From the NCBI GenBank assembly GCA_029007645.1, contig JAQXIE010000018.1:1-64000 (forward strand): a DNA stretch of 64,000 bases, read 5' to 3'. The notes below the pieces were generated by a model. It was not told where the DNA came from. It was given only the letters and a program-made list of their open reading frames with translations, and did no database searches. The stretch's first letter is position 1. Each line of letters begins with the position of its first letter. The DNA is from Bacteroidales bacterium (GTDB lineage Bacteria; Bacteroidota; Bacteroidia; Bacteroidales; Muribaculaceae). The position numbers were made by a program, and so were the translations under genes. Positions 39,276-56,313 of the stretch are shown one piece after another.

Positions 39276-39325
39276 TATTTGCCGGAAAGAATTTTTTTTG
39301 CTAATTTTGTGAAAAATTGGCATAG

Positions 39326-39619
39326 ATGGCCGGGAATCTGTTATCAGAACTGGAAAGTCTGAAAGCTAAGATCCAGGAGACGGGAGCACGGATACGTGCA
39401 CTTGAGGAAAGGAACAGGACACTGATGCTGGAGAACGAGGATCTCCGGCGGCAGACCCGCGAAGCCCTGTCGGAGCGCGACCGCGTGCGTCAGGACTGCG
39501 AATATCTGGAAGTGTCGCACAAGCTCGCCGACAACCCCGACACGCTGGTGGCCACCCGCCGCCGTCTGGCCGGTTTGATCCGCAACATCGACCGTTGCCT
39601 TGATATGCTCAAGGAATAA
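39326..39619 (+). CDS. small coiled-coil protein upstream of zapA
   Basis: Heptad-rich ELESLKAKIQETGARIRALEERNRTLMLENEDLRRQ; TAATTTTG promoter just upstream. Confidence 0.75.
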   Translation: MAGNLLSELESLKAKIQETGARIRALEERNRTLMLENEDLRRQTREALSERDRVRQDCEYLEVSHKLADNPDTLVATRRRLAGLIRNIDRCLDMLKE

Positions 39620-39631
39620 AATGGCACCGCG

Positions 39632-39940
39632 ATGGAAAGTACGGAAAAGATTAAAATGTACCTCAATATAGGCGGTTCGCAGATAGCTGTGACCGTCCCG
39701 TTCTCCCAGCAGGACACAGTGCGGGATGTGGAGAAACAGGTCAACGACCTCTACACTTCCTGGCGCCATCAGTTTTCGAAGAAGACAGACCGGGAGATTA
39801 TGGCCATGGTGGCCTATCAGTTCGCCTCGCATTACAACGAGTTGCGTGGCCGATACGCAGAAGCCGGAGAACTCGCCAGGGAATGCCTGGATGCCATGGA
39901 CCGGCTCGACCAGGAGGAGCAAGGCACAACCACGGCCTGA
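39632..39940 (+). CDS. zapA: cell division protein ZapA
   Basis: MYLNIGGSQIAVTVP...MVAYQFASHYNEL; neighbour of rny. Confidence 0.85.
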   Translation: MESTEKIKMYLNIGGSQIAVTVPFSQQDTVRDVEKQVNDLYTSWRHQFSKKTDREIMAMVAYQFASHYNELRGRYAEAGELARECLDAMDRLDQEEQGTTTA

Positions 39941-39944
39941 ACAA

Positions 39945-40105
39945 TCTGTTTCGCGACATTTTTCATCACCGAGTTGCGGATCCGCCCGACAATCCGAGAT
40001 ATGCGACGAGCTATCGACGGTTGGCGTGCGGAACTGAGAATGCTTGTGTCCGCATTATAAGCGGCTGAACCGATACGAAGAAGTGACTGAAACCGAAACT
40101 GAAAC
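39945..40105 (+). ncRNA. candidate structured RNA (6S-like?) between zapA and rny
   Basis: Nested complementarity: TGCGGA(39975)/TCCGCA(40049) outer, TCCGCCCGACAA(39981)/TTGGCGTGCGGA(40021) inner; position next to zapA, as for some 6S RNAs. Confidence 0.35.
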
Positions 40106-40132
40106 CCAATAAAAAAGAGCATACTATAAACA

Positions 40133-41674
40133 ATGGAAACAGCGATATGGATAATAATAGCGGTATTGGCAGCAATACTGGGCTATGTTGCGGCGTCGAT
40201 GATGAGTCGTCGCAACGCTCGCAGCCAGGCCAACGCCATCACCGCCGACGCACGCCGCGAGGCCGATGTAATTAAGGAAAAGACCCTGCTCCAGGCCAAG
40301 GAGGAGGAGATGCGCATACTGTCGGAGGCCGAAAAGACGGCCTCGCAGAAACTGCAGAAGGCTCAGAGCGCCGAGAACCGCAACAAGCAGCGGGAACGCG
40401 AGCTGAACCACGTGCAGCAGGACAACCAGCGCCGCAAGAAGGAACTGGACACGCTGCAGACCAATCTGGAGAACCGCGAGCAGCTGCTCGACAGCCGCGC
40501 CGAGGAGCTGGACCATCTGACCCGCCAGACGCAGGAAGAGTTGCAGCGCATATCGGGCCTCAGCGCCGAGGAGGCTCGCGAGAAGCTTGTGGAGAGCCTC
40601 AAGGACGAGGCTAAGAGCGCGGCGGCCGGATATATCAACGACATCATGGACGATGCCAAGATGACGGCCAGCAAGGAGGCCAAACGCATTGTGATCCAAA
40701 GCATCCAGCGCATGGCCACTGAGACGGCCATCGAGAACTCCGTGACCGTGTTCCATATCGACAACGATGAAGTGAAGGGCCGTATCATCGGCCGCGAGGG
40801 CCGCAACATCCGCGCCCTGGAGGCTGCCACGGGCATAGAGATTATCGTCGACGACACCCCCGAGGCCATCGTACTGTCGGGCTTCGACCCCGTGCGCCGC
40901 GAGATAGCGCGTCTGGCCCTGCACCAGCTCGTCACCGACGGCCGAATCCATCCCGCCCGTATCGAGGAGGTGGTGGCCAAGGTCCGCAAGCAGGTCGAGG
41001 AGGAGATAATCGAGACCGGTAAGCGCACGGCCATCGACCTCGGCATCCACGGACTGCACCCGGAACTGATCCGCATGGTCGGCAAGATGAAATACCGTTC
41101 GAGTTACGGCCAGAACCTGCTGCAGCACAGCCGCGAGACCGCCAATCTGTGCGCCATCATGGCCGCCGAACTGGGTCTCAATCCCAAGAAGGCGCGCCGC
41201 GCCGGTCTGCTGCATGACATCGGCAAGGTGCCCGATGACGAACCGGAGCTGCCGCACGCACTGCTCGGTATGAAACTGGCCGAGAAGTTCAAGGAGAAAC
41301 CCGACATCTGCAACGCCATCGGCGCTCACCACGACGAGGTGGAGCAGACCACACTGCTGGCGCCCATCGTTCAGGTATGCGACGCCATCTCGGGTGCTCG
41401 CCCCGGCGCGCGCCGCGAAATCGTCGAGGCATACATCAAGCGCCTCAACGACCTGGAGCAGCTGGCCCTCTCCTATCCGGGCGTCCTCAAGACATATGCC
41501 ATCCAGGCCGGTCGCGAACTCCGCGTGATCGTCGGCGCCGACAAGATCTCGGACGACGAGACCGAGAAGCTGTCGGCCGAAATCGCCAAGAAGATTCAGG
41601 ACGAGCTCACCTACCCCGGTCAGGTCAAGATCACCGTGATCCGCGAGACCCGCGCCGTAAGCTTCGCCAAATAA
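40133..41674 (+). CDS. rny: ribonuclease Y
   Basis: TM + coiled coil, KH ([39 protein letters not shown]), HD (LLHDIGK). Confidence 0.97.
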
Positions 41675-41700
41675 GCAGGTTGAGTTGTTGAGTTGTTGAG

Positions 41701-42987
41701 ATGACAGACCATAACAAGAAACAGTTCAGCTTCCGGCAGGAATGTCCGCGAGCCAAGCTGCAGGCCACCAACTGGCTGGCCGGCATCTCGGACGCGCGTG
41801 ACTTCGACATCGTGGAGGTGATCTTCAAGAACACGCGCGCAGGCTATTACATCAACAGTCTGGGCCCGGAGGTAAAGATCGGCGACACGGTGGTGGTGGA
41901 GTCGCAGCCCGGCTACGACATCGGACGCGTGAACATGACGGGGCGTCTCGTGAAGCTCCAGATGCGCAAGAACGGCATCAAGGAGGATTCCGAGCTGCGG
42001 AAACTGCTGCGCTACCCCACGCCCCAGGAACTTGACCGCGCCGACGAGGCCCACAGCCTGGAGCATGAGACGATGATCAAGGCGCGCCGCATCGCCGAGG
42101 GATTGTTGCTGAACATGAAGATAGGCGACGTCGAATACCAGGCGGATGCTGCAAAAGCCATATTTTATTACATAGCCGACGAGCGCGTGGACTTCCGGGC
42201 TCTGATCCGTGTGCTTGCAGACACTTTCAAGGTGCGCGTGGAGATGCGCCAGATCGGAGCACGTCAGGAAGCCGGCCGTATCGGCGGCATCGGACCCTGC
42301 GGACGGCCGCTTTGCTGCTCGCAGTGGATTACCCGCTTCAGCAGCGTGGGCACAGGCGCCGCCCGCATTCAGGACATCAGCATGAGTCCGCAGAAACTCG
42401 CCGGACAATGCGCCAAGCTGAAATGCTGTCTGAATTTCGAATCGGCCATCTACGCCGAAGCCCAGAAACAGATGCCCGGCAAGGATGTGCAACTCGAGAC
42501 CAAGGACGCCACCTACTACCTGTTCAAAAGCGATATCCTGGCGCATAAGGTGACCTACAGCACCGACCGCAAGATTCCGGCCAATCTGGTGACCATCGAC
42601 TCAAGCCGCGCGTTCGAGATAATCGCACTCAACAAACAGGGCGTGCGCGTAGACTCCCTGCTGCCCGAAGAGGAAGCCGCCCAGGGCGAGGAGACACCCA
42701 CCGATCTGGTGGAACAGGAAAGCCTGACCCGCTTCGACGGCTCGAAGGGCAAGAAACGCAAGAACCGCGGCCGCCGCGACAAATCGCAGGGCGAAAAGAA
42801 GCAGCAAGGCGAAAAGAAACAGCAGGGAGAGAACAGGCCGCAAGGCGAAAAGAAACAGCAAGGCGAGAACAGGCCGCAGGGTGAAAAGAAACCTCAGGAG
42901 GAGGGCCGGCATCAGCACCAGCGGCGCCGGCAACGTGGCCGCGGCGGCGAACAGCGAGGCGGCGAACAGAAAAAGTCCGAATCATGA
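41701..42987 (+). CDS. ricT: PSP1/RicT family protein with low-complexity basic tail
   Basis: RVEMRQIGARQEAGRIGGIGPCGRPLCCSQW; Cys motifs; QGEKKQ repeats at C-terminus. Confidence 0.88.
   Translation: MTDHNKKQFSFRQECPRAKLQATNWLAGISDARDFDIVEVIFKNTRAGYYINSLGPEVKIGDTVVVESQPGYDIGRVNMTGRLVKLQMRKNGIKEDSELRKLLRYPTPQELDRADEAHSLEHETMIKARRIAEGLLLNMKIGDVEYQADAAKAIFYYIADERVDFRALIRVLADTFKVRVEMRQIGARQEAGRIGGIGPCGRPLCCSQWITRFSSVGTGAARIQDISMSPQKLAGQCAKLKCCLNFESAIYAEAQKQMPGKDVQLETKDATYYLFKSDILAHKVTYSTDRKIPANLVTIDSSRAFEIIALNKQGVRVDSLLPEEEAAQGEETPTDLVEQESLTRFDGSKGKKRKNRGRRDKSQGEKKQQGEKKQQGENRPQGEKKQQGENRPQGEKKPQEEGRHQHQRRRQRGRGGEQRGGEQKKSES
42787..42894 (+). repeat. 18-bp coding repeat, six units QGE[KN][KR][QP]
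   Basis: QGEKKQ QGEKKQ QGENRP QGEKKQ QGENRP QGEKKP. Confidence 0.9.
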
Positions 42988-43502
42988 AATGGGCAGCAGC
43001 CGTCGCCCTGATTCTACTGGCATTGCCGGCATGCAGAGAGGTCGACGACACAATATACATGCATTACCACGACGTGCCGCGTTCAGGGTGGGACATGTCC
43101 CGGCCTATGAATTTCGAGGCCTTCCCGGCCGACTCATCCTACATCGGCACTCCAACGCGGATGGAGCTCCTTGTCAGATACCTGGAATCGCAGCCCATAG
43201 CGGAAATCCCAGTGCTGGCGTCGGTCGAGGACGATAACGGCGACATCGTCAGCGACACCCTGCGGCTGAAACTGTTCGGGCCGGAGGGACGGCCTCTGGA
43301 CCGTCCGAAGTTCGGCATCGCAGAACATGTCGTGCATCTGCTGGATCATTATCGGCTTCGGCCGGGCCTTTCGGTAAACCTGATACCTCTGGCCCCGGCC
43401 AATGCAAGCAAAGGATTGTTGAATATCGGGGTGAGACTCGCCAAGGATGCTGACCGGAGCATGCCGCCGAAATCCTCACTGCCCACAAAACATAAAGACT
43501 GA
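42984..43502 (+). CDS. gldH: gliding motility lipoprotein GldH
   Basis: Lipobox LALPACREV; YMHYHDVPRSGWDMSRPMNFE typical of GldH; ATGA overlap with ricT. Confidence 0.82.
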   Translation: MKWAAAVALILLALPACREVDDTIYMHYHDVPRSGWDMSRPMNFEAFPADSSYIGTPTRMELLVRYLESQPIAEIPVLASVEDDNGDIVSDTLRLKLFGPEGRPLDRPKFGIAEHVVHLLDHYRLRPGLSVNLIPLAPANASKGLLNIGVRLAKDADRSMPPKSSLPTKHKD

Positions 43503-44942
43503 ATGAATCTGTCGGAGGATCTGAAACATCCCATATTCCGGCGCATCGGCCGCATTGCAGACGCGATGGGCCGGGAAGTATATGTGGTCGGCGGCTATGT
43601 GCGCGACATTTTTCTGCAACGGCCGTCGCAGGACATCGATCTTGTGACCGTGGGGAGCGGCATAGAGCTTGCCGAGGCCGTGGCCCGCGATCTCGGGCCC
43701 CGCACGCCGCTGAATGTGTTCGCCACCTACGGCACGGCCCAGGTGAAACATCACGGACTCGAGCTGGAGTTTGTCGGCGCCCGCCGCGAGTCATACCGCC
43801 GGGAGAGCCGCAATCCGATAGTGGAGGACGGTACGCTGACCGACGACCAGAACCGCCGGGATTTCACCATCAACGCCATGGCCATCTGCCTGAACGCCGA
43901 CCGGTTCGGCGAACTCGTGGACCCGTTCAACGGACTTGTTGACCTGGCCAAGCGCGTGATCCGCACGCCTCTCGACCCCGACATCACATTCTCGGACGAT
44001 CCGCTGCGTATGATGCGCGCCGTGCGGTTCGCCACGCAGCTCGACTTTGAGATCCTGCCGGAAACGCTTGAGGCGATACGCCGCAACGCTTCGCGGCTGG
44101 AGATCATAACCCGCGAGCGCATCAACGACGAGCTGGGCAAGATCATGCGTTCGCCGCGCCCGTCGATAGGTTTCAAACTGCTCGACAGCACGGGGCTGCT
44201 GGCCATAGCCTTCCCCCCGATCCTCGACCTGAAGGGGGTTGAGACTGTAGAAGGCGTGGGTCACAAGGACAATTTCCTGCACACGCTTCAGGTGGTCGAC
44301 AATGTGGCCGCCCGCAGCGACAATGAATGGCTCCGTTGGGCAGCCCTGCTCCACGACATCGGCAAACCGGCTACCAAACGGTTTGACGACAAGCTGGGCT
44401 GGACGTTCCATAACCACAACTTCATCGGCGAGAAGATGGTGCCGCGCATTTTCCGCAAGTACAAGATGCCGATGAACGAGAATATGAAGTATGTGGCCAA
44501 ACTTGTGGGTCTGCATATGCGACCGCAGTCGGTGGGCGAAAGCGGAGTGACCGATTCGGGAGTGCGCCGCCTCATCACCGATGCCGGTCCCGATCTGGAC
44601 GATCTGATGATACTCGCCGAGGCCGACATCACGTCGAAGAATCCGGGGAAAGTGCGCCGTCAGCTGGAGGGCTTCCGCCGGTTGCGCGAGCGCATGGAGC
44701 AGATCAACGATGCCGACGCCCTGCGCAACTGGAAAAATCCGGTTAACGGCAACGAAATCATGGAGCACTTCGGGCTTGCGCCCGGCGAAGAGATAAAATG
44801 GATCAAGGATGCCGTGAAGGAAGCCATCATGGAGGGAGAAATTCCGTATGACCATGCCGCGGCATGGCAATATGCGCTGGAGCACGGCGAGGATATTCTT
44901 GCCGCGAACCGCGATGCTCGCAATGCAAAAACATTGCAGTAG
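43503..44942 (+). CDS. cca: CCA tRNA nucleotidyltransferase / poly(A) polymerase family with HD domain
   Basis: YVVGGYVRDIFLQRPSQDIDLVTVG; RDFTINAMA; LLHDIGKPATK. Confidence 0.93.
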   Translation: MNLSEDLKHPIFRRIGRIADAMGREVYVVGGYVRDIFLQRPSQDIDLVTVGSGIELAEAVARDLGPRTPLNVFATYGTAQVKHHGLELEFVGARRESYRRESRNPIVEDGTLTDDQNRRDFTINAMAICLNADRFGELVDPFNGLVDLAKRVIRTPLDPDITFSDDPLRMMRAVRFATQLDFEILPETLEAIRRNASRLEIITRERINDELGKIMRSPRPSIGFKLLDSTGLLAIAFPPILDLKGVETVEGVGHKDNFLHTLQVVDNVAARSDNEWLRWAALLHDIGKPATKRFDDKLGWTFHNHNFIGEKMVPRIFRKYKMPMNENMKYVAKLVGLHMRPQSVGESGVTDSGVRRLITDAGPDLDDLMILAEADITSKNPGKVRRQLEGFRRLRERMEQINDADALRNWKNPVNGNEIMEHFGLAPGEEIKWIKDAVKEAIMEGEIPYDHAAAWQYALEHGEDILAANRDARNAKTLQ

Positions 44943-45178
44943 AAATTGAATTTTTTTTAAAATTTTTAAAAATCGCAGATAGTGAAAATACCTGAGTTGC
45001 ATAAAAAATATTTTCGCTATAAATTCGCAAATGATAACAATGCTGATGTCCGGATGTGACTTCCGGACGTTAGAAAAAAGGACCGGTGTGACGATAGGTG
45101 CCGGAATATAAATACAACCAACTATGAACAAGAATGCCGGAGAGCCGGCAGAATAACCAGGTAAATAATAAGTCGATT

Positions 45179-45388
45179 ATGGACATTGGACAGGAAATCA
45201 GGAAGCGTCGGCAGGAGCTGAGATTAACGCAGCAGTCGCTTGCCGATATCTCTGGAGTTAGTGTTCGGATGATTAAGTCGATAGAAGGAAATTATGCCAA
45301 CCCTTCGATACGCACGGTCGAGAAGCTGTTGAAGTCACTGAACCTGGGTCTTGAGATAATGGAAATGCGCCCGGCCGTAGAGGCCTGA
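45179..45388 (+). CDS. XRE family helix-turn-helix regulator
   Basis: MDIGQEIRKRRQELRLTQQSLADISGVSVRMIKSIEGNYANPSIRTVEKLLKSLNLGLEI. Confidence 0.88.
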   Translation: MDIGQEIRKRRQELRLTQQSLADISGVSVRMIKSIEGNYANPSIRTVEKLLKSLNLGLEIMEMRPAVEA

Positions 45389-45396
45389 CATTTCGA

Positions 45397-45433
45397 ACGG
45401 GGCCGCAGCAAAGCTGCAGCCCCGTTTCGTTTA
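45397..45433 (+). terminator. rho-independent terminator
   Basis: ACGGGGCcGCAGC aaa GCTGCaGCCCCGT TTCGTTT. Confidence 0.8.
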
Positions 45434-45550
45434 AGCAGTTTCGGAGATGGGTTTCGCAGATTCGATTTTTTTTGTTATTTTTGCAATTTGAACCGGATAT
45501 GTGACGGGGATAACTTAAATTGTAACTAATCAGACAACAAAGATAAAAAG

Positions 45551-47101
45551 ATGGCAAAGCAGGAAGACGTATTCAAGTCAATAATAGCGCACGCCAAGGA
45601 ATACGGTTTCGTATTCCAGTCGTCGGAGATATACGACGGTCTCTCGGCGGTATACGATTATGGCCAGAACGGAGTAGAGCTTAAGAACAACATCAAGCGC
45701 TACTGGTGGGAGGCGATGACGATGTTGCACGACAACATTGTCGGCATCGATTCCGCCATATTCATGCATCCGACCATCTGGAAGGCATCGGGCCATGTCG
45801 ACGCGTTCAATGACCCGTTGATCGACAACCGCGACAGCAAGAAGCGCTACCGCGCGGACGTACTGATCGAGGACGAGATAGCCAAATTCGACGACAAGAT
45901 CAATAAGGAAGTGGCCAAGGCCGCCAAGCGTTTCGGCGACAGCTTCGACGAGGCACAGTTCCGCAGCACCAACGCCCGCGTTCTGGAGAACCAGGCCAAG
46001 CGCGACGAGCTGCATCAGCGTTACTCCGACGCAATGAACGCCAACGACCTCGACGCTCTGAAGCAGATAATCCTGGACTATGAGATCGTCGACCCGATCA
46101 GCGGCACGCGCAACTGGACCGACGTACGTCAGTTCAACCTGATGTTCAAGACCGAGATGGGATCCACGGCCGACGGCGCGATGGATGTTTACCTCCGTCC
46201 CGAGACCGCCCAGGGTATCTTTGTGAACGACCTGAACGTTCAGAAGACCGGACGCATGCGTATCCCGTTCGGTATCGCGCAGATCGGCAAGGCATTCCGC
46301 AACGAGATCGTGGCCCGTCAGTTCATCTTCCGCATGCGCGAGTTCGAGCAGATGGAGATGCAGTTCTTCGTACGTCCCGGCGAGGAGATGAAATGGTTCG
46401 ACTACTGGCGCAAGCTGCGTCTGGAGTGGCACAAGAACCTTGGACTGGGCGATGAAAAATACCGTTACCATGACCACGAGAAGCTGGCTCACTACGCCAA
46501 CGCCGCCACCGACATCGAGTTCCTCATGCCGTTCGGATTCAAGGAAGTGGAGGGTATCCACTCGCGTACCAATTTCGACCTGTCGCAGCACGAGAAATTC
46601 TCGGGCAAGAAGATACAGTACTTCGATCCGGAGCTGAACCAGAGCTACGTGCCTTACGTAATCGAGACCTCGATTGGCGTTGACCGCATGTTCCTGAGCG
46701 TGATGTGCAGTTGCTACGAGAACCAGCAGCTCGAGGGCGGCGACAGCCGCGTGGTGCTGCACTTCCCCGCGCCGATCGCGCCAGTGAAATGCGCCGTACT
46801 CCCACTGGTCAAGAAGGACGGACTGCCCGAAAAGGCCCGCGAAATCCAGCACCGCCTCCGTTTCGACTTCACCTGTCAGTACGATGAGAAGGACTCGATC
46901 GGCAAACGTTACCGCCGTCAGGACGCCATCGGCACCCCCTACTGCGTGACCGTCGATCACCAGACGCTCGAGGACAACACCGTGACACTGCGTCACCGCG
47001 ACTCGATGGAGCAGAAACGCGTCAACATCGACGATCTGGAGAAGATCCTGGCCGACGAAGTAAGCCTGAACAGCCTGCTGCGCCGTCTGGCCGACAAATA
47101 A
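45551..47101 (+). CDS. glyS: glycine--tRNA ligase (dimeric type)
   Basis: GFVFQSSEIYDGLSAVYDYGQNGVELKNNIKRYWW; RPETAQGIFVN; EQMEMQFFV. Confidence 0.96.
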   Translation: MAKQEDVFKSIIAHAKEYGFVFQSSEIYDGLSAVYDYGQNGVELKNNIKRYWWEAMTMLHDNIVGIDSAIFMHPTIWKASGHVDAFNDPLIDNRDSKKRYRADVLIEDEIAKFDDKINKEVAKAAKRFGDSFDEAQFRSTNARVLENQAKRDELHQRYSDAMNANDLDALKQIILDYEIVDPISGTRNWTDVRQFNLMFKTEMGSTADGAMDVYLRPETAQGIFVNDLNVQKTGRMRIPFGIAQIGKAFRNEIVARQFIFRMREFEQMEMQFFVRPGEEMKWFDYWRKLRLEWHKNLGLGDEKYRYHDHEKLAHYANAATDIEFLMPFGFKEVEGIHSRTNFDLSQHEKFSGKKIQYFDPELNQSYVPYVIETSIGVDRMFLSVMCSCYENQQLEGGDSRVVLHFPAPIAPVKCAVLPLVKKDGLPEKAREIQHRLRFDFTCQYDEKDSIGKRYRRQDAIGTPYCVTVDHQTLEDNTVTLRHRDSMEQKRVNIDDLEKILADEVSLNSLLRRLADK

Positions 47102-47130
47102 TCCCCTGACCGAACTAAAAATTCAAAATC

Positions 47131-47715
47131 ATGACAATCAAGAGAATCATATACATGCTGGTGGCGCTGACTGCCATGACAGGATTGAGCTCGTGCAACT
47201 ACAACTCGCTGGTCGAAAAGCAGCAGGGCGTTGACCAGGCGTGGGCACAGGTGGAGAACCAGTATCAGCGTCGCGCCGACCTGATTCCGAACCTGGTGAA
47301 CACGGTCAAGGGCTACAGCACCCACGAGGAAGAGACGCTGACCAAGGTGACGGAAGCCCGCGCCAAGGCGACGTCGATAACACTCACCGCCGACGAACTG
47401 ACCGAGGAGAATCTGGCCCGCTATCAGGCAGCCCAGAACGAGCTTTCGGGCGCGCTGAAGTCGCTGCTCGCCGTATCCGAGGCGTATCCCGACCTGAAAG
47501 CCAACGAAAACTTCCTGAACCTGCAGGCTCAGCTCGAGGGAACGGAAAACCGGATCTCGACCGAGCGCAAGCGCTACACCGAGGCCGTGATGGACTACAA
47601 CACGAGCATCAAGAAGTTCCCGACGATGATTTACGCCGGATGGTTCGGGTTCAAGGAAAAACCGCAGTTCAAAGCCGAGGCGGGCGCCGAGCGCGCTCCT
47701 GAAGTAAAATTCTGA
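47131..47715 (+). CDS. LemA family protein
   Basis: YNSLVEKQQGVDQAWAQVENQYQRRADLIPNLVNTVKGYSTHEEETL. Confidence 0.95.
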   Translation: MTIKRIIYMLVALTAMTGLSSCNYNSLVEKQQGVDQAWAQVENQYQRRADLIPNLVNTVKGYSTHEEETLTKVTEARAKATSITLTADELTEENLARYQAAQNELSGALKSLLAVSEAYPDLKANENFLNLQAQLEGTENRISTERKRYTEAVMDYNTSIKKFPTMIYAGWFGFKEKPQFKAEAGAERAPEVKF

Positions 47716-47717
47716 CA

Positions 47718-48242
47718 ATGAAGAAACTGTCATTACTCAGCCTGGCCTCAGTCGCCTTGATGTCGCTCACCTCCTGTCTGGGCTCCGACGTGGAGACCTA
47801 CGACAACTGGAGGAAACAGAACGAAGACTACATAGCCTCGATCGACCTGAACGAGTACGAGCGCTATATTCCGAGCTGGGCTCCCGAGCACGCCATCTAT
47901 ATGAAATGGCACAACGATCGGGCGCTGACCGCCGGAAACCTGGTGCCGATCTCGACGTCGACCGTCAGGGTGAAATATGAGCTGGAGGACATCGAAGGCA
48001 ACAAACTCCAGAACTCCTACAAGGCCAACGGCGACAGCATCTACGAGTCGCAGGTCAACACCAACATCCTGGGCTTCTGGGCCGCTCTGACCAACATGCA
48101 TGTCGGCGACTCGGTGACGATGATTCTGCCCTACCAGTCGGCTTACGGCAACTACTCGTCGGGCAGCGTTCTCCCCTACTCGGATCTGATCTACCACGTG
48201 AAACTCGTATCTGTAAAGGCCTACGAGCGACCGGATAAGTAA
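47718..48242 (+). CDS. FKBP-type peptidyl-prolyl isomerase-like lipoprotein
   Basis: Lipobox SLTSCLG; LGFWAALTNMHVGDSVTMILPYQSAYGNYSSGSVLPYSDLIYHVKLVSV. Confidence 0.8.
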   Translation: MKKLSLLSLASVALMSLTSCLGSDVETYDNWRKQNEDYIASIDLNEYERYIPSWAPEHAIYMKWHNDRALTAGNLVPISTSTVRVKYELEDIEGNKLQNSYKANGDSIYESQVNTNILGFWAALTNMHVGDSVTMILPYQSAYGNYSSGSVLPYSDLIYHVKLVSVKAYERPDK

Positions 48243-48264
48243 ATAACGCAACACTCATTTATAT

Positions 48265-50793
48265 ATGAGAAGGACTATCGCAGCCATGGCCTTGTGTGCA
48301 ACACTCGGGGCCATGGCTTATACCATAACCGGCTACCGGGAGGCACCGATGGCGCGTCTGAGGGTGCCGGCACAGCCCGACAGCGTGGAAAGCGAAAACA
48401 AGTTCGAGGCAACACAATTGCTGCACTCGCGGCATCTGGCCGGCCAATGGCCCGACGACAGCAAATGGAAGCCGTTGCTGACCGACAGCACAGGAATGGT
48501 CGGGGGCTCGAAGAGTACCGACGCGCCGGAACTGCGCACCTACACCACGCGTCTGCGCGCTGCGCGCTATGCCAAGGGCACGCTGAAACTGACCACAGCC
48601 TCGCGTGCGGAAGTAAGCGTCAACGGCGAGGCATTGGTATCGCATGAAAGCTCCGACAGCACAGCCAAGCCGACAACCGCTCCGCTCGAACTGCTCCCCG
48701 AAGCCGACATGCAGATCACTGTCAACATCCTGACCATGCCCGATGACAAGGGCCCGGCGGGATTCAAACTGGAATTCGCCCCCGATGCCGAATACAAGGA
48801 CGTGTCCCTGCAATCCGGAGCCGACCTTCACAGGCGCGTCAGCCCTGTGGCCACGATGCAGGGTGACCGCGTGACGGGAGTGTCGCTCTCGCCCGACGGC
48901 AAGTACCTGCTGACCCGGTACCGCGAGACTGTGTCGGCGACCGAGACGCGACGCCGCGCCGTGCTGACCGAAACGGCCACCGGCCGCGTCATCAGCGAGG
49001 ATATCAACCAGTCGGCCGAATGGATGCCCCGTGGAAACCGGCTCTATTTCACCCGCGCCGGTGTGAAGGGCTACGATCTATACACGCTGAGCGTGCCCGG
49101 CATGCGCAGCCAGCGGATAGCCACGGCCATTCCCTCGGACGAGATCACCGTTTCGCCCGATGAACAGTATCTGATCTATTACACGAATGTCGAGGGCGCG
49201 AAGGAGACCGGCGTGATGCGCCGCGTGCGCACTCCGGACGACCGTATTCCCGGCGACCGAGACCGTTATTATCTGTCGCGCTACGACATGGAGACCGGCG
49301 TCTCGACGGTGCTCACCTACGGCGGCGCCACGACACAGTTCTGCGACATGACCCGCGACGGCTCGAAGCTGCTCTACATTTCATCGCGGGCCACACCCGA
49401 CAAATATCCCTTCTACCGGTCGTCGCTGATCCAGATGGACATGCGCACGTTCGCAACGGATACGATCGTGACGACCTCCAACGCCGACAGCGGCGTCAAT
49501 GACGCGGTATACTCGCCCGACGGACGCCAGGTGTTCCTGACGGGAGGCCCGGACGCCCTGGGCGGAATCGGCGCCAACTATGCGCCGGAACCTATCGGCA
49601 ACGACTTCGACCGTCAGGGTTTCATCATGGATATCGCCACGCGCAGAGTGCGCGCCATGACCCGCGACTTCGATCCGTCGATCGAAGGGAGCGTGACGTG
49701 GAACCCCGTCAACAATATGATATATTTCATCGGCGAGCGCGGATTCTTCCGCGACCTCTACGAGCTGAATCCCGGCAGCGGAGTAATCCGCATGCTGGCC
49801 AAAGAGGTGGAGACGGTGCGCGGTTTCAGCATCGGCGACAACGAGGAACGCCTGGTGGCCTACTACGGCGGCGGCTTCACCAACGAGGGCGCGGCATGGC
49901 TGCTCGACCTCAAGAACGGCCGCAACACGCTGGTCGACGATCCGCTGAAACAATACCTGGGCGACATGCAGTTTGGCGAAATGCGCCCCTGGAGCTTCAC
50001 AGCGTCCGACGGCAGCCTGATCGACGGCTACATGTGCCTGCCTCCCGATTTCGATCCCCAGCGCAAGTATCCGCTGATCGTATACTACTACGGAGGGACA
50101 TCGCCGACAAGCGCCGGATTCTATCACCTCTACTCGCCGCAGGTGTTCGCCAGCCGCGACTATGTGGTCTACACTCTCAATCCGAGCGGCACCACAGGCT
50201 ACGGCCAGGAGTTCTCGGCACGTCATGTCAATGCCTGGGGCAAGCGCACGGCCGACGAGATCATCGAGGGCGTGAAGGCTTTCTGCAAGGCACACCCCTT
50301 TGTCGACGACAAGAAGATTGGCTGTCTGGGAGCCTCCTACGGCGGCTTCATGACCCAGTACCTGCTCACGAAGACCGACATCTTCGCCGCAGCCATGTCG
50401 CATGCCGGCATATCGAACGTGACAAGCTACTGGGGCGAGGGCTACTGGGGATATTCCTACAATTCGGTCGCGGCTGCCAAGAGCTACCCCTGGACCGATC
50501 CCGAGCTTTACACAAAGCAAGGTTCGCTGTTCAATGCCGACAAGATACACACGCCGTTATTGCTGCTGCACGGAACGGCCGATACCAACGTGCCCATCGG
50601 CGAGAGCATCCAGCTGTTCAACGCACTGCGCATCCTGGGCCGCGATGTGGAATTCATCACCGTCGAAGGTGAGAACCATGTGATCTCGGACTACGAGAAG
50701 AAACTGCTGTGGCAGAACACGATAATGGCCTGGTTCGCCAAGTGGCTGCAGGATGATCCCCGCTGGTGGAACAGCCTCTACGGTAACAAATAA
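48265..50793 (+). CDS. S9 family peptidase (prolyl oligopeptidase/DPP-like)
   Basis: WD40-like TolB repeats; GCLGASYGGFMTQYLLT nucleophile motif; HGTADTNVPIGES; ENHVISD. Confidence 0.93.
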   Translation: MRRTIAAMALCATLGAMAYTITGYREAPMARLRVPAQPDSVESENKFEATQLLHSRHLAGQWPDDSKWKPLLTDSTGMVGGSKSTDAPELRTYTTRLRAARYAKGTLKLTTASRAEVSVNGEALVSHESSDSTAKPTTAPLELLPEADMQITVNILTMPDDKGPAGFKLEFAPDAEYKDVSLQSGADLHRRVSPVATMQGDRVTGVSLSPDGKYLLTRYRETVSATETRRRAVLTETATGRVISEDINQSAEWMPRGNRLYFTRAGVKGYDLYTLSVPGMRSQRIATAIPSDEITVSPDEQYLIYYTNVEGAKETGVMRRVRTPDDRIPGDRDRYYLSRYDMETGVSTVLTYGGATTQFCDMTRDGSKLLYISSRATPDKYPFYRSSLIQMDMRTFATDTIVTTSNADSGVNDAVYSPDGRQVFLTGGPDALGGIGANYAPEPIGNDFDRQGFIMDIATRRVRAMTRDFDPSIEGSVTWNPVNNMIYFIGERGFFRDLYELNPGSGVIRMLAKEVETVRGFSIGDNEERLVAYYGGGFTNEGAAWLLDLKNGRNTLVDDPLKQYLGDMQFGEMRPWSFTASDGSLIDGYMCLPPDFDPQRKYPLIVYYYGGTSPTSAGFYHLYSPQVFASRDYVVYTLNPSGTTGYGQEFSARHVNAWGKRTADEIIEGVKAFCKAHPFVDDKKIGCLGASYGGFMTQYLLTKTDIFAAAMSHAGISNVTSYWGEGYWGYSYNSVAAAKSYPWTDPELYTKQGSLFNADKIHTPLLLLHGTADTNVPIGESIQLFNALRILGRDVEFITVEGENHVISDYEKKLLWQNTIMAWFAKWLQDDPRWWNSLYGNK

Positions 50794-50797
50794 AACA

Positions 50798-51160
50798 ATG
50801 ATCAAAATGAAATATATCAAAGCTATTATGGCTGCCGGGGCGATCGCCCTGTTGTCGCTTGCTTCGTGCAACAGCAAGAGTATGAAGGACAGCGAGGAAA
50901 CCGCAGCCGAAATCGAGGCAGCCCAACTCGAAGGCCGCGAGGCGGCACGCATTTTCGTAAACCGGCCATGGCACGACACGATCTCGCTGCAGGCCCGGCT
51001 CCTGGAAGCACGTGCTGGTCAGAGCAAATATGTCACGGCCAAGAAGCCACGTTGCGCGGCGGCTTACGACTCGGCATTTGTCTCGACCCTGCGCACGGTG
51101 AATATCAGTGTGGCGCTCGAACTTGAGAAAGCGCACCGCACACCGAAAGTAAACCGTTGA
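50798..51160 (+). CDS. hypothetical lipoprotein
   Basis: IALLSLASCNSKSMKD lipobox. Confidence 0.65.
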   Translation: MIKMKYIKAIMAAGAIALLSLASCNSKSMKDSEETAAEIEAAQLEGREAARIFVNRPWHDTISLQARLLEARAGQSKYVTAKKPRCAAAYDSAFVSTLRTVNISVALELEKAHRTPKVNR

Positions 51161-51171
51161 AAGGAGACCCG

Positions 51172-51966
51172 ATGAGCGTCATTCCCGGTGACATTGCGCA
51201 GCTTCTGGATGAAGAGGCGGCACGCATCAACAATCCGGATTTCATCGCATCGGATCCGGTACAGTTTCCGCGTCGCTTCACACGCCTGCAGGATATTGAA
51301 ATCGTGTCACTGCTGGCGGCGACACTGGCATGGGGCAACCGCCGGATGATATGCCGCGATACCGAACGGCTTCTGGACCTGATGGAACATGAGCCCTACC
51401 GCTACGTGATGGAGCGGGGATACGACGATCTGGACCCGGAGATCAACATCCACCGGACCTTTTTCGGACGTCATCTCAAGCAATTTCTCAACGGGTTGCA
51501 CGGCATTTATACGAACAATCCGAGTCTGGATGCGTTTAGCAAAAAGACGGGAAGCGGCGAGGACGCCGCGCCGGCATGGCGTCTGACTGCCGCGATGCAG
51601 GAAGTTTTCACGGCGCAGAACGGCGGCGTGCCCTGCGAGCGGTGTCTGCCGGCCGATCTGAAGCACACGGCACTGAAGCGCATCAACATGGCGCTCCGCT
51701 GGCTGGTGCGCGATGACGGCATCGTCGACCTCGGCGTATGGAAGTCCATTCCGAAAAGCCGGCTTTACATTCCGCTGGACGTACATGTGGGCAATACCGC
51801 CCGCAACCTGGGTCTCACCACGCGCAAGGCCAACGACCGCCACACGGTCGAAGAACTGACCGCCACGCTGCGCGCACTGCGACCGGACGACCCGGTCTAC
51901 TACGACTATGCCTTGTTCGGCATAGGCGTGACTGCCAAAGAATCCTCTAACCAAAATAACCTCTGA
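51172..51966 (+). CDS. TIGR02757 family protein
   Basis: RFTRLQDIEIVSLLAATLAWGNRRMI; MALRWLVRDDGIVDLGVWKSIPKSRLYIPLDVHVGNTARNLGL. Confidence 0.88.
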   Translation: MSVIPGDIAQLLDEEAARINNPDFIASDPVQFPRRFTRLQDIEIVSLLAATLAWGNRRMICRDTERLLDLMEHEPYRYVMERGYDDLDPEINIHRTFFGRHLKQFLNGLHGIYTNNPSLDAFSKKTGSGEDAAPAWRLTAAMQEVFTAQNGGVPCERCLPADLKHTALKRINMALRWLVRDDGIVDLGVWKSIPKSRLYIPLDVHVGNTARNLGLTTRKANDRHTVEELTATLRALRPDDPVYYDYALFGIGVTAKESSNQNNL

Positions 51967-51980
51967 ACAAACTGACCGAC

Positions 51981-53468
51981 ATGACGCGACGCTTCTTACA
52001 ATTGCTTCTGGCACTTACCATATCGCTGACAGCCTTTGCCTACAACAACCCGAAACGGGAGTTCCGGGGGGCCTGGCTGCATGTCATTGGCCAGAGTCAA
52101 TGGCAGGACAAGAGCCCCGAACAGGCCCGGGCCTATATTGTGGACCAATTCAACAAGCTGCAGGACGCCGGATGCAATGTGGTGATATTCCAGGTGCGTC
52201 CTACGGCCGATGCGGTCTACAAGTCGGAGCTGGAGCCCTGGAGCGCGTGGCTGACGGGTAAACGGGGCAAAGCGCCGAATCCGGTGTGGGATCCGATGGA
52301 ATTCGCCATCGCCGAAGCCCATCGCCGCGGCTTGGAGTTCCATGCTTGGCTCAACCCCTACAGGGTGACGTCGACCGCCAAGGAAACACTGCCCGCCGAT
52401 CATCTGTCGAACCGTGAGCCTGAACGGTTTTTCCGCTACAACGGACAGGTGCTGTTCGACCCGGCCTATCAGGAGAACCGCGATTTCATCTGCGAGGTGG
52501 TTACCGACATTCTGCGGCGCTACGACGTGGACGGCATTCATATCGATGACTATTTCTACCCCTACCCCGCCGCCGGGAAATCGATTCCCGACGACGCGAG
52601 CTACCGTAAATTCGGCAACGGCATGGACCGCGGCGACTGGCGCCGGCACAATGTGGATCTGTTGATCGAGCAGCTGCACCGTACTATCAAGAAGGAGAAG
52701 CCCTGGGTGCGCTTCGGAATCAGCCCGTTCGGCATCTGGCGCAACAAGTCGAACGATCCGCGCGGGTCGGAAAGCAGCGGGCTGCAGAACTACGACGGCC
52801 TCTACGCCGACGTGCTGCTGTGGGACCGCAAGGGCTGGATGGACTATATCGTGCCGCAGCTCTACTGGAATCTGGACACGAAGGCCGCACCGAGCCGCAA
52901 GCTGGTGAAGTGGTGGAACGACAATATCCATAACAGCGACCTTTACATCGGCCAGGACGTGCAGCGCACCATGAACATGGCCGATCCGGGCAACAACGAC
53001 CGCAACGAGCTCGACACGAAGGTGCGTCTGACACGACAGCTTCCCAACGTGAAGGGCAATGTCTGGTGGCATGGCTATTGGGTGACCGGCAACTACAAGG
53101 GAGCGGCCGACTCGCTGGCGTCGAAATACCAGTCGACAATAGCGCTGCCCCCCGTCTACGACGGTCCCGGACATGGTCCCAAAGGAATCAAACACCTTAA
53201 AATCGTTAAGAGCCATGAGGGAAAATTCCTGGAATGGAACCGTCCGGAGCAGGGCCGCGAGCCGAAGAGCGACGACGTAGTGAAGTTCGTGGTCTATGAA
53301 TTCTTCCCGGGCGAAAAGCAGGACACCGAGGATCCCCAGGCCATAGTGGCGATGACGCCCTACAACCGCGTGCGCGTTGAGAATGCCGAGCGCGGCATGA
53401 CCTACGCCGTGACCACCCTGGACCGCCTGAACCGCGAATCCAAACCCGTCTTCCTCTACGTCAAATAA
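51981..53468 (+). CDS. family 10-like glycosyl hydrolase (GHL10/DUF187)
   Basis: KREFRGAWLHVIGQSQWQ; NVVIFQVRPTADAVYKSELEPWSAWLTG; YDVDGIHIDDYFYPYP; YIVPQLYWN. Confidence 0.93.
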   Translation: MTRRFLQLLLALTISLTAFAYNNPKREFRGAWLHVIGQSQWQDKSPEQARAYIVDQFNKLQDAGCNVVIFQVRPTADAVYKSELEPWSAWLTGKRGKAPNPVWDPMEFAIAEAHRRGLEFHAWLNPYRVTSTAKETLPADHLSNREPERFFRYNGQVLFDPAYQENRDFICEVVTDILRRYDVDGIHIDDYFYPYPAAGKSIPDDASYRKFGNGMDRGDWRRHNVDLLIEQLHRTIKKEKPWVRFGISPFGIWRNKSNDPRGSESSGLQNYDGLYADVLLWDRKGWMDYIVPQLYWNLDTKAAPSRKLVKWWNDNIHNSDLYIGQDVQRTMNMADPGNNDRNELDTKVRLTRQLPNVKGNVWWHGYWVTGNYKGAADSLASKYQSTIALPPVYDGPGHGPKGIKHLKIVKSHEGKFLEWNRPEQGREPKSDDVVKFVVYEFFPGEKQDTEDPQAIVAMTPYNRVRVENAERGMTYAVTTLDRLNRESKPVFLYVK

Positions 53469-53483
53469 CGCCGGTCATATCGT

Positions 53484-53540
53484 TATTTTTGTCACTGCAG
53501 AGACAATTTATTATCTTTGTCACTGCAGAGACAATTTATA
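53484..53540 (+). promoter_or_regulatory. 28-bp tandem duplication carrying two TAnnTTTG elements and two GTCaCTGCAGaGAC near-palindromes
   Basis: TATTTTTG (53484-53491) and TATCTTTG (53512-53519); 24-bp identical segment tttgtcactgcagagacaatttat at 53488 and 53516. Confidence 0.75.
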
Positions 53541-54559: not shown

Positions 54560-54713
54560 ATCATACATATTTACGTATTATCAACATCTTTTGACGGATT
54601 GTAACCTCCCAACCCTCCTGTTGTGACGATAATTTTACGCATTGTGCGCTGCGTTGATTCATTTATAATTAGTTTTGTGACCGCAACGATTAACCTTTAA
54701 AGAACTATTTACT

Positions 54714-55130
54714 ATGAAGAAAATCCTTTATGTGGCATTCATGGCCATAGCAGCAGCCACGATGACCGCCTGCGGCGGTTCGAACGAGAAGAAGTCAGTG
54801 AACGTGGACGGCCAGGAGGTTGTCGTGTCGGAAGAGGTTGCCGACCTGGACCTGCAGGGCATCAGCGACCTGGTGAAGAAGGACAGCAAGGACGTCACCG
54901 CCGACGATTACGACTTCGTGATCGACCAGCTGGAGATCCTGAACAAGAAGACCGCCAAGATGAACAACGAGGAGTTCCAGATATGGCGGGACAGCCTGAG
55001 CAGCGACGACAAGGGCGTGGTGATGACCTTGGGCTTAATGGCCGAGGGCATGCAGAAACGCGCAGAGCTGTCGGATTCCCAGCGCGAACGCCTGGACAAG
55101 GTGCTGGCCGAACTGGACAAGCGCGACTGA
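54714..55130 (+). CDS. hypothetical lipoprotein
   Basis: AATMTACGGSNEKK lipobox; TAGTTTTG upstream. Confidence 0.7.
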   Translation: MKKILYVAFMAIAAATMTACGGSNEKKSVNVDGQEVVVSEEVADLDLQGISDLVKKDSKDVTADDYDFVIDQLEILNKKTAKMNNEEFQIWRDSLSSDDKGVVMTLGLMAEGMQKRAELSDSQRERLDKVLAELDKRD

Positions 55131-55163
55131 CATATGCGTAACTACGACCTCCTCCCCCGCTAA

Positions 55164-55273
55164 AATTAATCCCGATTAATCTCGATTTATCTTGATTAAT
55201 CGGGATTTGTCCTGATTATTCGGGATTTGTCCTGATTAATCGGGATTTGTCCTGATTGATCAGGATTAATCTT
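55164..55273. repeat. upstream array: eleven 10-bp units GATTNNTCNN
   Basis: aattaatccc gattaatctc gatttatctt gattaatcgg gatttgtcct gattattcgg gatttgtcct gattaatcgg gatttgtcct gattgatcag gattaatctt. Confidence 0.95.
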
Positions 55274-55363
55274 GAGTCATTGGGCGCAATCCATCGCAGC
55301 GCGGATCTGTTGTCCGGCTGTCGGGAACATCGCGGCGGGGCGCAATTATTCGTCTATTAAGAT

Positions 55364-55394
55364 TTGCGGATGTTTTGTAATTGCATTATATTTG
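55364..55394 (+). promoter_or_regulatory. promoter candidate of four-helix gene 2
   Basis: TTG (55364-55366) - 20 nt - TATATTTG (55387-55394). Confidence 0.55.
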
Positions 55395-55414
55395 TGTGAA
55401 ATACCGGAATAATT

Positions 55415-56170
55415 ATGAGCGTCAATATTCAGTTTTCTCAATCTTATTATTGGCTTAACTCCTGGATTTTAGCCAACGTGATTCAGCTTGGCACACAGGA
55501 TTTCTGCGACCGGTTTATCGACCATCGAATGGATCCCGGACGTCGTCTTTACGACCAGATGGTAATGGCTGCCCGTTGTGGTGTGGCCAATATCGCAGAA
55601 GGCTCAGCCCGACACTCTACGTCGGTGGAAACTGAAATGAAGCTGCTCGACGTGGCAAGAGCGAGTTTTGACGAACTTCAGGGCGATCTCTTTAATTTCC
55701 TGCTGCGTCTCCGGGCAGATGTATGGGCTATAGGTAACCCTGACCGCGAGGTAATTTGGCAAATGAGGCTTGATACGCCGCAATATACCAACAGCTATCT
55801 GCATGATGCAGCCATACACATTCTCAATCAAAAAAGCAAATTCGACAGATGGCTCAATAATAAGAATCCCGAAATAGTGGCCAATGCGCTGTTAGTGTTG
55901 TGTCTCAGACAGAACAAGATGCTACAGTCCCAGATTCAGAGTCAGCTTGAGAGCTTCCGCCAGACGGGTGGCTTCACTGAAAATATGACAGCCGAACGAC
56001 TTGAAGCCCGCAAGGTCCAGGCAGCAGAGGCTGGCGCACCGCTCTGTCCGAAGTGCGGAAAGCCGATGTTGCGTCGTATGCAGAAGAAAGGCCAGATGCA
56101 GGGCCGCGAGTTCTGGGGTTGCAGCGACTATCCGCGCTGTGATGGGCTCCGCCCGATGAATCAAGATTAA
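55415..56170 (+). CDS. four helix bundle protein with C-terminal suffix containing a topoisomerase-type C4 zinc ribbon
   Basis: DQMVMAARCGVANIAEGSARHSTSVETEMKLLDVARASFDEL; C-term CPKCGKPMLRRMQKKGQMQGREFWGCSDYPRCDGLRPM. Confidence 0.88.
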   Translation: MSVNIQFSQSYYWLNSWILANVIQLGTQDFCDRFIDHRMDPGRRLYDQMVMAARCGVANIAEGSARHSTSVETEMKLLDVARASFDELQGDLFNFLLRLRADVWAIGNPDREVIWQMRLDTPQYTNSYLHDAAIHILNQKSKFDRWLNNKNPEIVANALLVLCLRQNKMLQSQIQSQLESFRQTGGFTENMTAERLEARKVQAAEAGAPLCPKCGKPMLRRMQKKGQMQGREFWGCSDYPRCDGLRPMNQD

Positions 56171-56244
56171 TCCCGATGAATCAAGATTAAACCTGATAAA
56201 TCCTGATAAATCCTGATAAATCCCGATTAATCGGGATTTGTCTC
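56155..56244. repeat. downstream array: nine 10-bp units GATNAATCNN, inverted in sense relative to upstream array
   Basis: gatgaatcaa gattaatccc gatgaatcaa gattaaacct gataaatcct gataaatcct gataaatccc gattaatcgg gatttgtctc; overlaps last codons and stop of 55415 CDS. Confidence 0.94.
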
Positions 56245-56313
56245 GGAGCTTCTTTCTGGCGGCAACCCGGAGGGGCGTTCGATTGTTATAGCCTTTGAAA
56301 GGAGATTATAACA

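Follow-up and report, generated by a model that had tools for sequence, protein, structure and literature searches.

A four-helix-bundle gene between two repeat arrays

Towards the right-hand end of the window (the whole 64,000-nucleotide stretch analysed, from a Muribaculaceae contig), a gene for a four-helix-bundle protein lies between two arrays of 10-bp repeats, where no other sizeable ORF matches a family (Table 1). The locus is flanked by protein genes and stands outside rRNA. Family S23/IVP, to which the gene product bears a likeness, has no settled function; four-helix-bundle proteins of this family are present in 156 of 200 sampled Bacteroidota genomes, and the origin of short-unit bacterial arrays is likewise largely unexplained.

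Table 1. Coordinates of repeat arrays, genes and protein domains in the window
Feature	Position	Strand	Description	Basis
Upstream array	55164..55273		eleven 10-bp units GATTNNTCNN; as a single strand, a near-perfect long hairpin	direct reading, TRF, pattern count, folding
Downstream array	56155..56244		nine 10-bp units; first 16 bp are the gene end	direct reading, TRF, pattern count
Four-helix-bundle gene	55415..56170	+	251 aa: four-helix core, 4helix_suffix, Top1-type zinc ribbon	
Four-helix-bundle suffix domain	55868..56014	+	residues 152-200; TIGR04258 positions 1-49 of 49	
Topoisomerase-type C4 zinc ribbon	56045..56161	+	residues 211-249	PF01396, alignment
Comparison arrays	26944..27133		two facing 9-bp arrays, ATAGCNNCA then GCTATNNNN, each lying upstream of the 27234 gene	
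Second four-helix family gene	27234..27791	+	TIGR04258 73.7 bits; without zinc ribbon; different repeat word	

The protein passes the curated cut-off of NCBIfam TIGR04258 (52.3 bits, cut-off 40) as well as that of Pfam PF01396 (39.5 bits, cut-off 32), and its scores stay below the cut-offs of TIGR02436 (21.9 bits against 24) and PF05635 (21.2 against 33.8). The four zinc-ribbon cysteines, C211, C214, C236 and C242, are invariant in an alignment of 51 sequences. A structure model (mean pLDDT 86.8) shows a helical bundle plus the zinc ribbon, and its best PDB matches are the S23 proteins 2gsc (probability 1.00) and 2rld, with E-values above 0.01; the case for S23 fold kinship therefore needs sequence and structure jointly, neither being strong alone. 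Taken together they indicate that the protein is related to the S23/IVP family, outside its membership as drawn by the TIGR02436 and PF05635 models. Avd of diversity-generating retroelements is a further relative of the four-helix-bundle fold; in an unsystematic look at the locus, neither a reverse transcriptase nor a pair of template and variable repeats was noticed.

No transposase family, and in particular no HUH (Y1) transposase, was matched at the cassette in the NCBIfam and Pfam scans, and no catalytic domain was recognised in the four-helix protein, which may thus recognise sites without itself recombining them, or have nothing to do with movement.

The arrays and their relation to each other

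The eleven upstream and nine downstream units counted in the earlier note were borne out. The upstream array, strictly of 10-bp period, reads AATTAATCCC, GATTAATCTC, GATTTATCTT, GATTAATCGG, GATTTGTCCT and so on to GATTAATCTT, its first unit starting with A, and the downstream array reads GATGAATCAA, GATTAATCCC and onwards to GATTAATCGG and GATTTGTCTC, with GATTAAACCT as unit 4 and GATTTGTCTC as the final unit. The downstream array begins within the gene, as the coding end together with the stop codon (56155-56170) is itself array sequence. Both arrays were detected by TRF. When the pattern GATNNNTCNN was searched in three consecutive copies with one mismatch allowed, 29 matches were obtained in the window, all within or at the edge of the two arrays, compared with a mean of 0.02 in shuffled windows, none of which (0/100) reached 29. 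The units are contiguous and without spacers, which sets the arrays apart from a CRISPR array. Folded alone as a single strand, the upstream array forms one long hairpin (-56.2 kcal/mol, z -8.8), as had been anticipated from the near-palindromic units.

The two arrays had also been taken for an inverted pair, a reading that we dropped after left-right alignments. In the window the two relations tie, with a local score of 38.6 for the direct and 39.6-40.6 for the inverted comparison, and as GATTAATC reads the same on both strands, they cannot be told apart there. Of 79 loci in the zinc-ribbon branch, 62 score higher for direct similarity, and at a margin above 3 direct loci outnumber inverted ones 37 to 6; an inverted pair therefore does not characterise this branch in general. 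At L172 (97 bp) and L188, the flanking copies are direct and share long identical stretches. The remaining suffix-domain loci go both ways (8 direct, 16 inverted, mostly close to background), and the classical TIGR02436 loci tend to the inverted relation, at modest scores. At the classical TIGR02436 genes of L095-L124, the flanks tend to weak mutual inverted similarity, and a few have 7-8 bp arrays.

Two further tandem repeats were seen in the window: a 28-bp duplication at the start of an AraC-type regulator ORF (53483-53539), and an 18/36-bp repeat at 42786-42892 that is probably coding.

Arrays accompany the gene family

Eighty loci of the zinc-ribbon branch were taken from public genomes. 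Within 200 bp, 55 of 76 zinc-ribbon relatives have an array of 8-10 bp units, compared with 37 of 511 other ORFs of the same loci (p = 4e-35), where the ORFs were called mechanically, the relatives are statistically dependent and most genomes are draft MAGs. Arrays on both sides are found for 25 of the 76 relatives against a single one of the 511 other ORFs. At genome level, 10-bp arrays are present in 22 of 61 genomes and the reversed pattern in none (0/61); within the genus, they occur in 13 of 14 gene-bearing genomes versus 8 of 23 genomes without a detected intact gene (p = 6e-4). One of these eight (G012) holds an internally deleted gene copy beside its array. Some family genes have no array, for example G004/L051, and at classical TIGR02436 loci arrays are fewer and their periods shorter. 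The earlier note had expected its cassette reading to fail if relatives kept genes without arrays, or arrays without genes, and the two showed no association; array-only sites did prove common and a few genes are array-less, whereas the association between gene and array is strong.

No relative of the gene was found in viral contigs or phages. Plasmids yielded one clear suffix-domain match, in Prevotella nigrescens; the threshold scan gave no array on this plasmid, and downstream of the gene a degenerate run of CCTAGNNNN can be seen. At another locus (L266, G022), the start of a Cas9-like ORF lies from about position 1923, downstream of a four-helix remnant.

Each protein lineage has its own repeat word

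Muribaculaceae arrays have units of 10 bp, those of rumen Prevotella and its relatives units of 8 bp, and in some others the period is 9 bp. Following the suggestion that the unit sequence be compared with the protein phylogeny, we found that the one tracks the other: array and protein similarity are correlated (Mantel rho 0.57), a value reached in 0 of 1000 permutations. Where a genome also holds paralogues, the array is closer to that of the nearest cross-genome relative than to that of any paralogue in 16 of 19 cases, and in the three exceptions a close relative is absent. On these comparisons, array period and sequence follow the protein lineage rather than the genome. A cross-genome match of arrays alone is no proof of recognition, as gene and array could be co-inherited.

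The genome of the window (G000) illustrates this diversity, with six suffix-domain loci, each of which has, by reading, its own short repeat word beside it (two of the runs are short). These words comprise GATTAATC-type 10-mers and 9-mers built on ATAGC, TAGCTA, AAGGTCCTT, CTTATAAGT and CTATGAGAA. At the second cassette in the window (Table 1), the two opposed arrays could form a large single hairpin.

In addition, two gene-less 10-bp arrays were found in this genome, one between a helicase gene and tsf (contig 18:66338) and one between gcvT and gcvH (contig 31:15234), the gene names being taken from translations. The gcvT-gcvH array was found only in this genome, and 29 congeners are without it. 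On contig 75, L267 (1501-1640) carries a decayed copy, a 3' remnant of the gene with its zinc-ribbon end, which adjoins a RhuM-like ORF.

Gene and array change place together

For 122 of 187 pairs of relatives with at least 80% protein identity, no homology between the flanks could be detected within 6 kb, some of these flanks ending at contig ends. In the relocated pairs, the alignment covers just the gene and at most about 80 bp beyond it; for L132 and L165 (85% DNA identity), it starts at -77 bp and stops with the gene. General rearrangement could explain part of this loss of synteny. In one Prevotella lineage, the gene occupies a single site across many species, and movement would therefore be slow or occasional.

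A comparison with related genomes for presence or absence of the whole cassette, as the earlier note had proposed, found the site empty in syntenic congeners. The lipoprotein at 54714 is found only in this genome and is unusable as a synteny anchor, and the helicase served instead. The helicase and orf182, which neighbour the cassette in the window, stand side by side in five congeners (G062, G009, G006, G001, G024), and in all five the gene and the 10-bp array are absent from the stretch fetched. In G062, G009 and G006, helicase-orf182 is followed by the block that starts at 39.3 kb in the window; G001 and G024 keep helicase-orf182 alone, and in G001 this block is joined differently. The block (39300-53500) is inverted in the window relative to G062, G009 and G006, and one of its edges lies at the four-helix cassette. 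At its far edge (39.3 kb) an array was looked for and none was seen.

The gene itself can be found in either orientation at one site, being opposite at the miaB-side locus in L043 compared with L044 and L046. No clean short target-site duplication emerged, and variation of the arrays blurs the junctions. At two loci the 3' end of a host gene, named by eye, stands on both sides of the four-helix gene: a comM-like end in L202 (5807-5911 and 6862-6966) and a miaB-like end in L161 (5770-5948 and 6811-6975). These repeated host-gene ends resemble a long target duplication.

A probable mobile cassette and its alternatives

Branch-specific words, joint relocation of gene and array, and solo arrays together give the locus the look of a mobile element that lacks any known transposase, and the earlier idea of a gene with its ends, lacking a recognisable transposase, was supported. 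We consider it probable, with room for doubt, that this is a mobile or selfish cassette of about 0.8-1.1 kb, made up of an S23-like gene and arrays of the palindromic unit proper to its protein. The protein may assemble as an S23-type ring, which would recognise its own array DNA either as duplex palindromes or, when single-stranded, as hairpins, and the Top1-type zinc ribbon, where present, might aid this recognition. Through the protein, host replication or recombination enzymes would duplicate or shift the array, alone or together with the gene, to new intergenic sites. Recombination between flanking arrays could then turn the cassette round, or remove the gene so that only a solo array is left. 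The sequences themselves show the arrays, their tie to the gene, the match of unit and protein by lineage, relocation with tight boundaries, an empty site, a species-private solo array, an inversion and decayed copies. Ring assembly, DNA binding, movement driven by the protein and the route of that movement are all proposals that we infer from the pattern at these loci. Counted against the cassette reading are the array-only genomes (8/23), the array-less genes, the fixed site in Prevotella, the failure to recognise a catalytic domain or to define a clean short target duplication, and general rearrangement as a partial cause of lost synteny.

The best-placed alternative, which we nevertheless regard as unlikely, is a chromosome-organising or regulatory protein that binds scattered intergenic arrays in the manner of ParB-parS or a global regulator, so that the arrays beside the gene would be autoregulatory and gene movement incidental. 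Such a protein would be at home with palindromic units, a zinc ribbon, a stable site in the Prevotella lineage and solo arrays in intergenic positions, one of them inside an operon; yet that very array, in a conserved operon, is private to one species. Also against a regulator are the several paralogues of one genome, each with a different unit, the units and periods that differ between lineages, and the joint relocation of gene and array with boundaries near the gene.

We think it improbable that the element acts at the RNA level, like the intervening sequences (IVS) of 23S rRNA, with transcript hairpins bound by the S23-like protein and spread through RNA. The fold family is shared with proteins encoded in rRNA intervening sequences (PMC4990558) and the arrays fold strongly, but the 94 family arrays examined fold much better than shuffled sequence on either strand and have no strand preference (30 vs 31). 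Folding without strand bias fits palindromic DNA and argues against an RNA-specific structure, and the RNA reading was therefore set low. Moreover, Rfam gave no match across 54600-57000, of four rRNA motifs any is present in only one fetched locus (L180), and an unsystematic look noticed no reverse transcriptase.

Still less credit is given to a conventional, unrecognised transposon, in which an unseen host or phage transposase would treat the arrays as its ends, with the four-helix gene carried as cargo. A repeat-ended cassette, its relocation and the gene-less copies would all follow from it, whereas a cargo role leaves unexplained that the end sequence is matched to the protein in every lineage, and the viral contigs and phages gave no relative. 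Finally, slippage repeats that hitch-hike without a functional link to the gene could account for variable array length and for arrays overlapping gene ends, but this reading has very little chance of being right and was already strongly disfavoured, given units that go with the protein lineage in different genomes and at unlinked sites, the excess of both-sided arrays and the empty reversed control.

The mobile cassette reading gives both the family and the arrays a testable job, in that, protein by protein, each would recognise its own word. Should movement be confirmed, these cassettes would represent a class of mobile element without known transposase, in which matched pairs of protein and DNA word evolved in parallel. 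More tentatively, and with the balance somewhat against it, we suggest a new class of small mobile elements in which an S23-like protein with no recognisable recombinase mobilises arrays of its own short palindromic word, with or without the gene, and whose principle would also explain the short tandem repeats of Bacteroidota, Beggiatoaceae and cyanobacteria as well as the suspected mobility of rRNA IVS. The open-access literature, which omits most subscription journals, yielded no report of the family-array pairing.

Comparison with known systems

The 23S rRNA IVS are suspected to be mobile, with their ORF as a possible mobility component (PMC4990558). S23/TIGR02436 proteins and these IVS share with the cassette the four-helix-bundle fold (2gsc, 2rld) and an ORF that lies between repeats. 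In contrast to the IVS, the cassette lies outside rRNA genes, its protein adds the suffix and the zinc ribbon, and it has, apparently in place of a single terminal stem, arrays of protein-matched 8-10 bp units, with solo arrays dispersed.

In RAYT (TnpA-REP) systems, palindromic REP/REPIN repeats adjoin the gene (PMC3116915, PMC8266576). The likeness is one of working only: cognate palindromic repeats flank the gene, gene-less copies are dispersed, there is usually one gene of a kind per genome, and the repeat tracks the protein lineage. Unlike in RAYT, no HUH transposase is matched, the protein is an S23-like bundle and the units are 8-10 bp tandem repeats.

Intergenic TAACTGA arrays were described in 2015 from Beggiatoaceae, cyanobacteria and Bacteroidetes, and how they are transferred is reported as not evident (PMC4679880). 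Like the arrays described here, these STRR/TAACTGA heptamers form short-unit intergenic arrays dispersed in scattered lineages; that description makes no mention of a four-helix/S23 protein (PMC4679880), whereas each type of cassette unit has a protein partner. In Bacteroidota, 2 of 13 TAACTGA sites have a TIGR02436 gene no more than about 100 bp away (p about 4e-4 against a rough, self-estimated background), and with just two such sites the link is only a lead. TAACTGA arrays adjoin classical TIGR02436 genes at L284 (1495-1962) and L288 (1063-1548), and in L288 degenerate TAACTGA copies, reversed, are seen on the far side.
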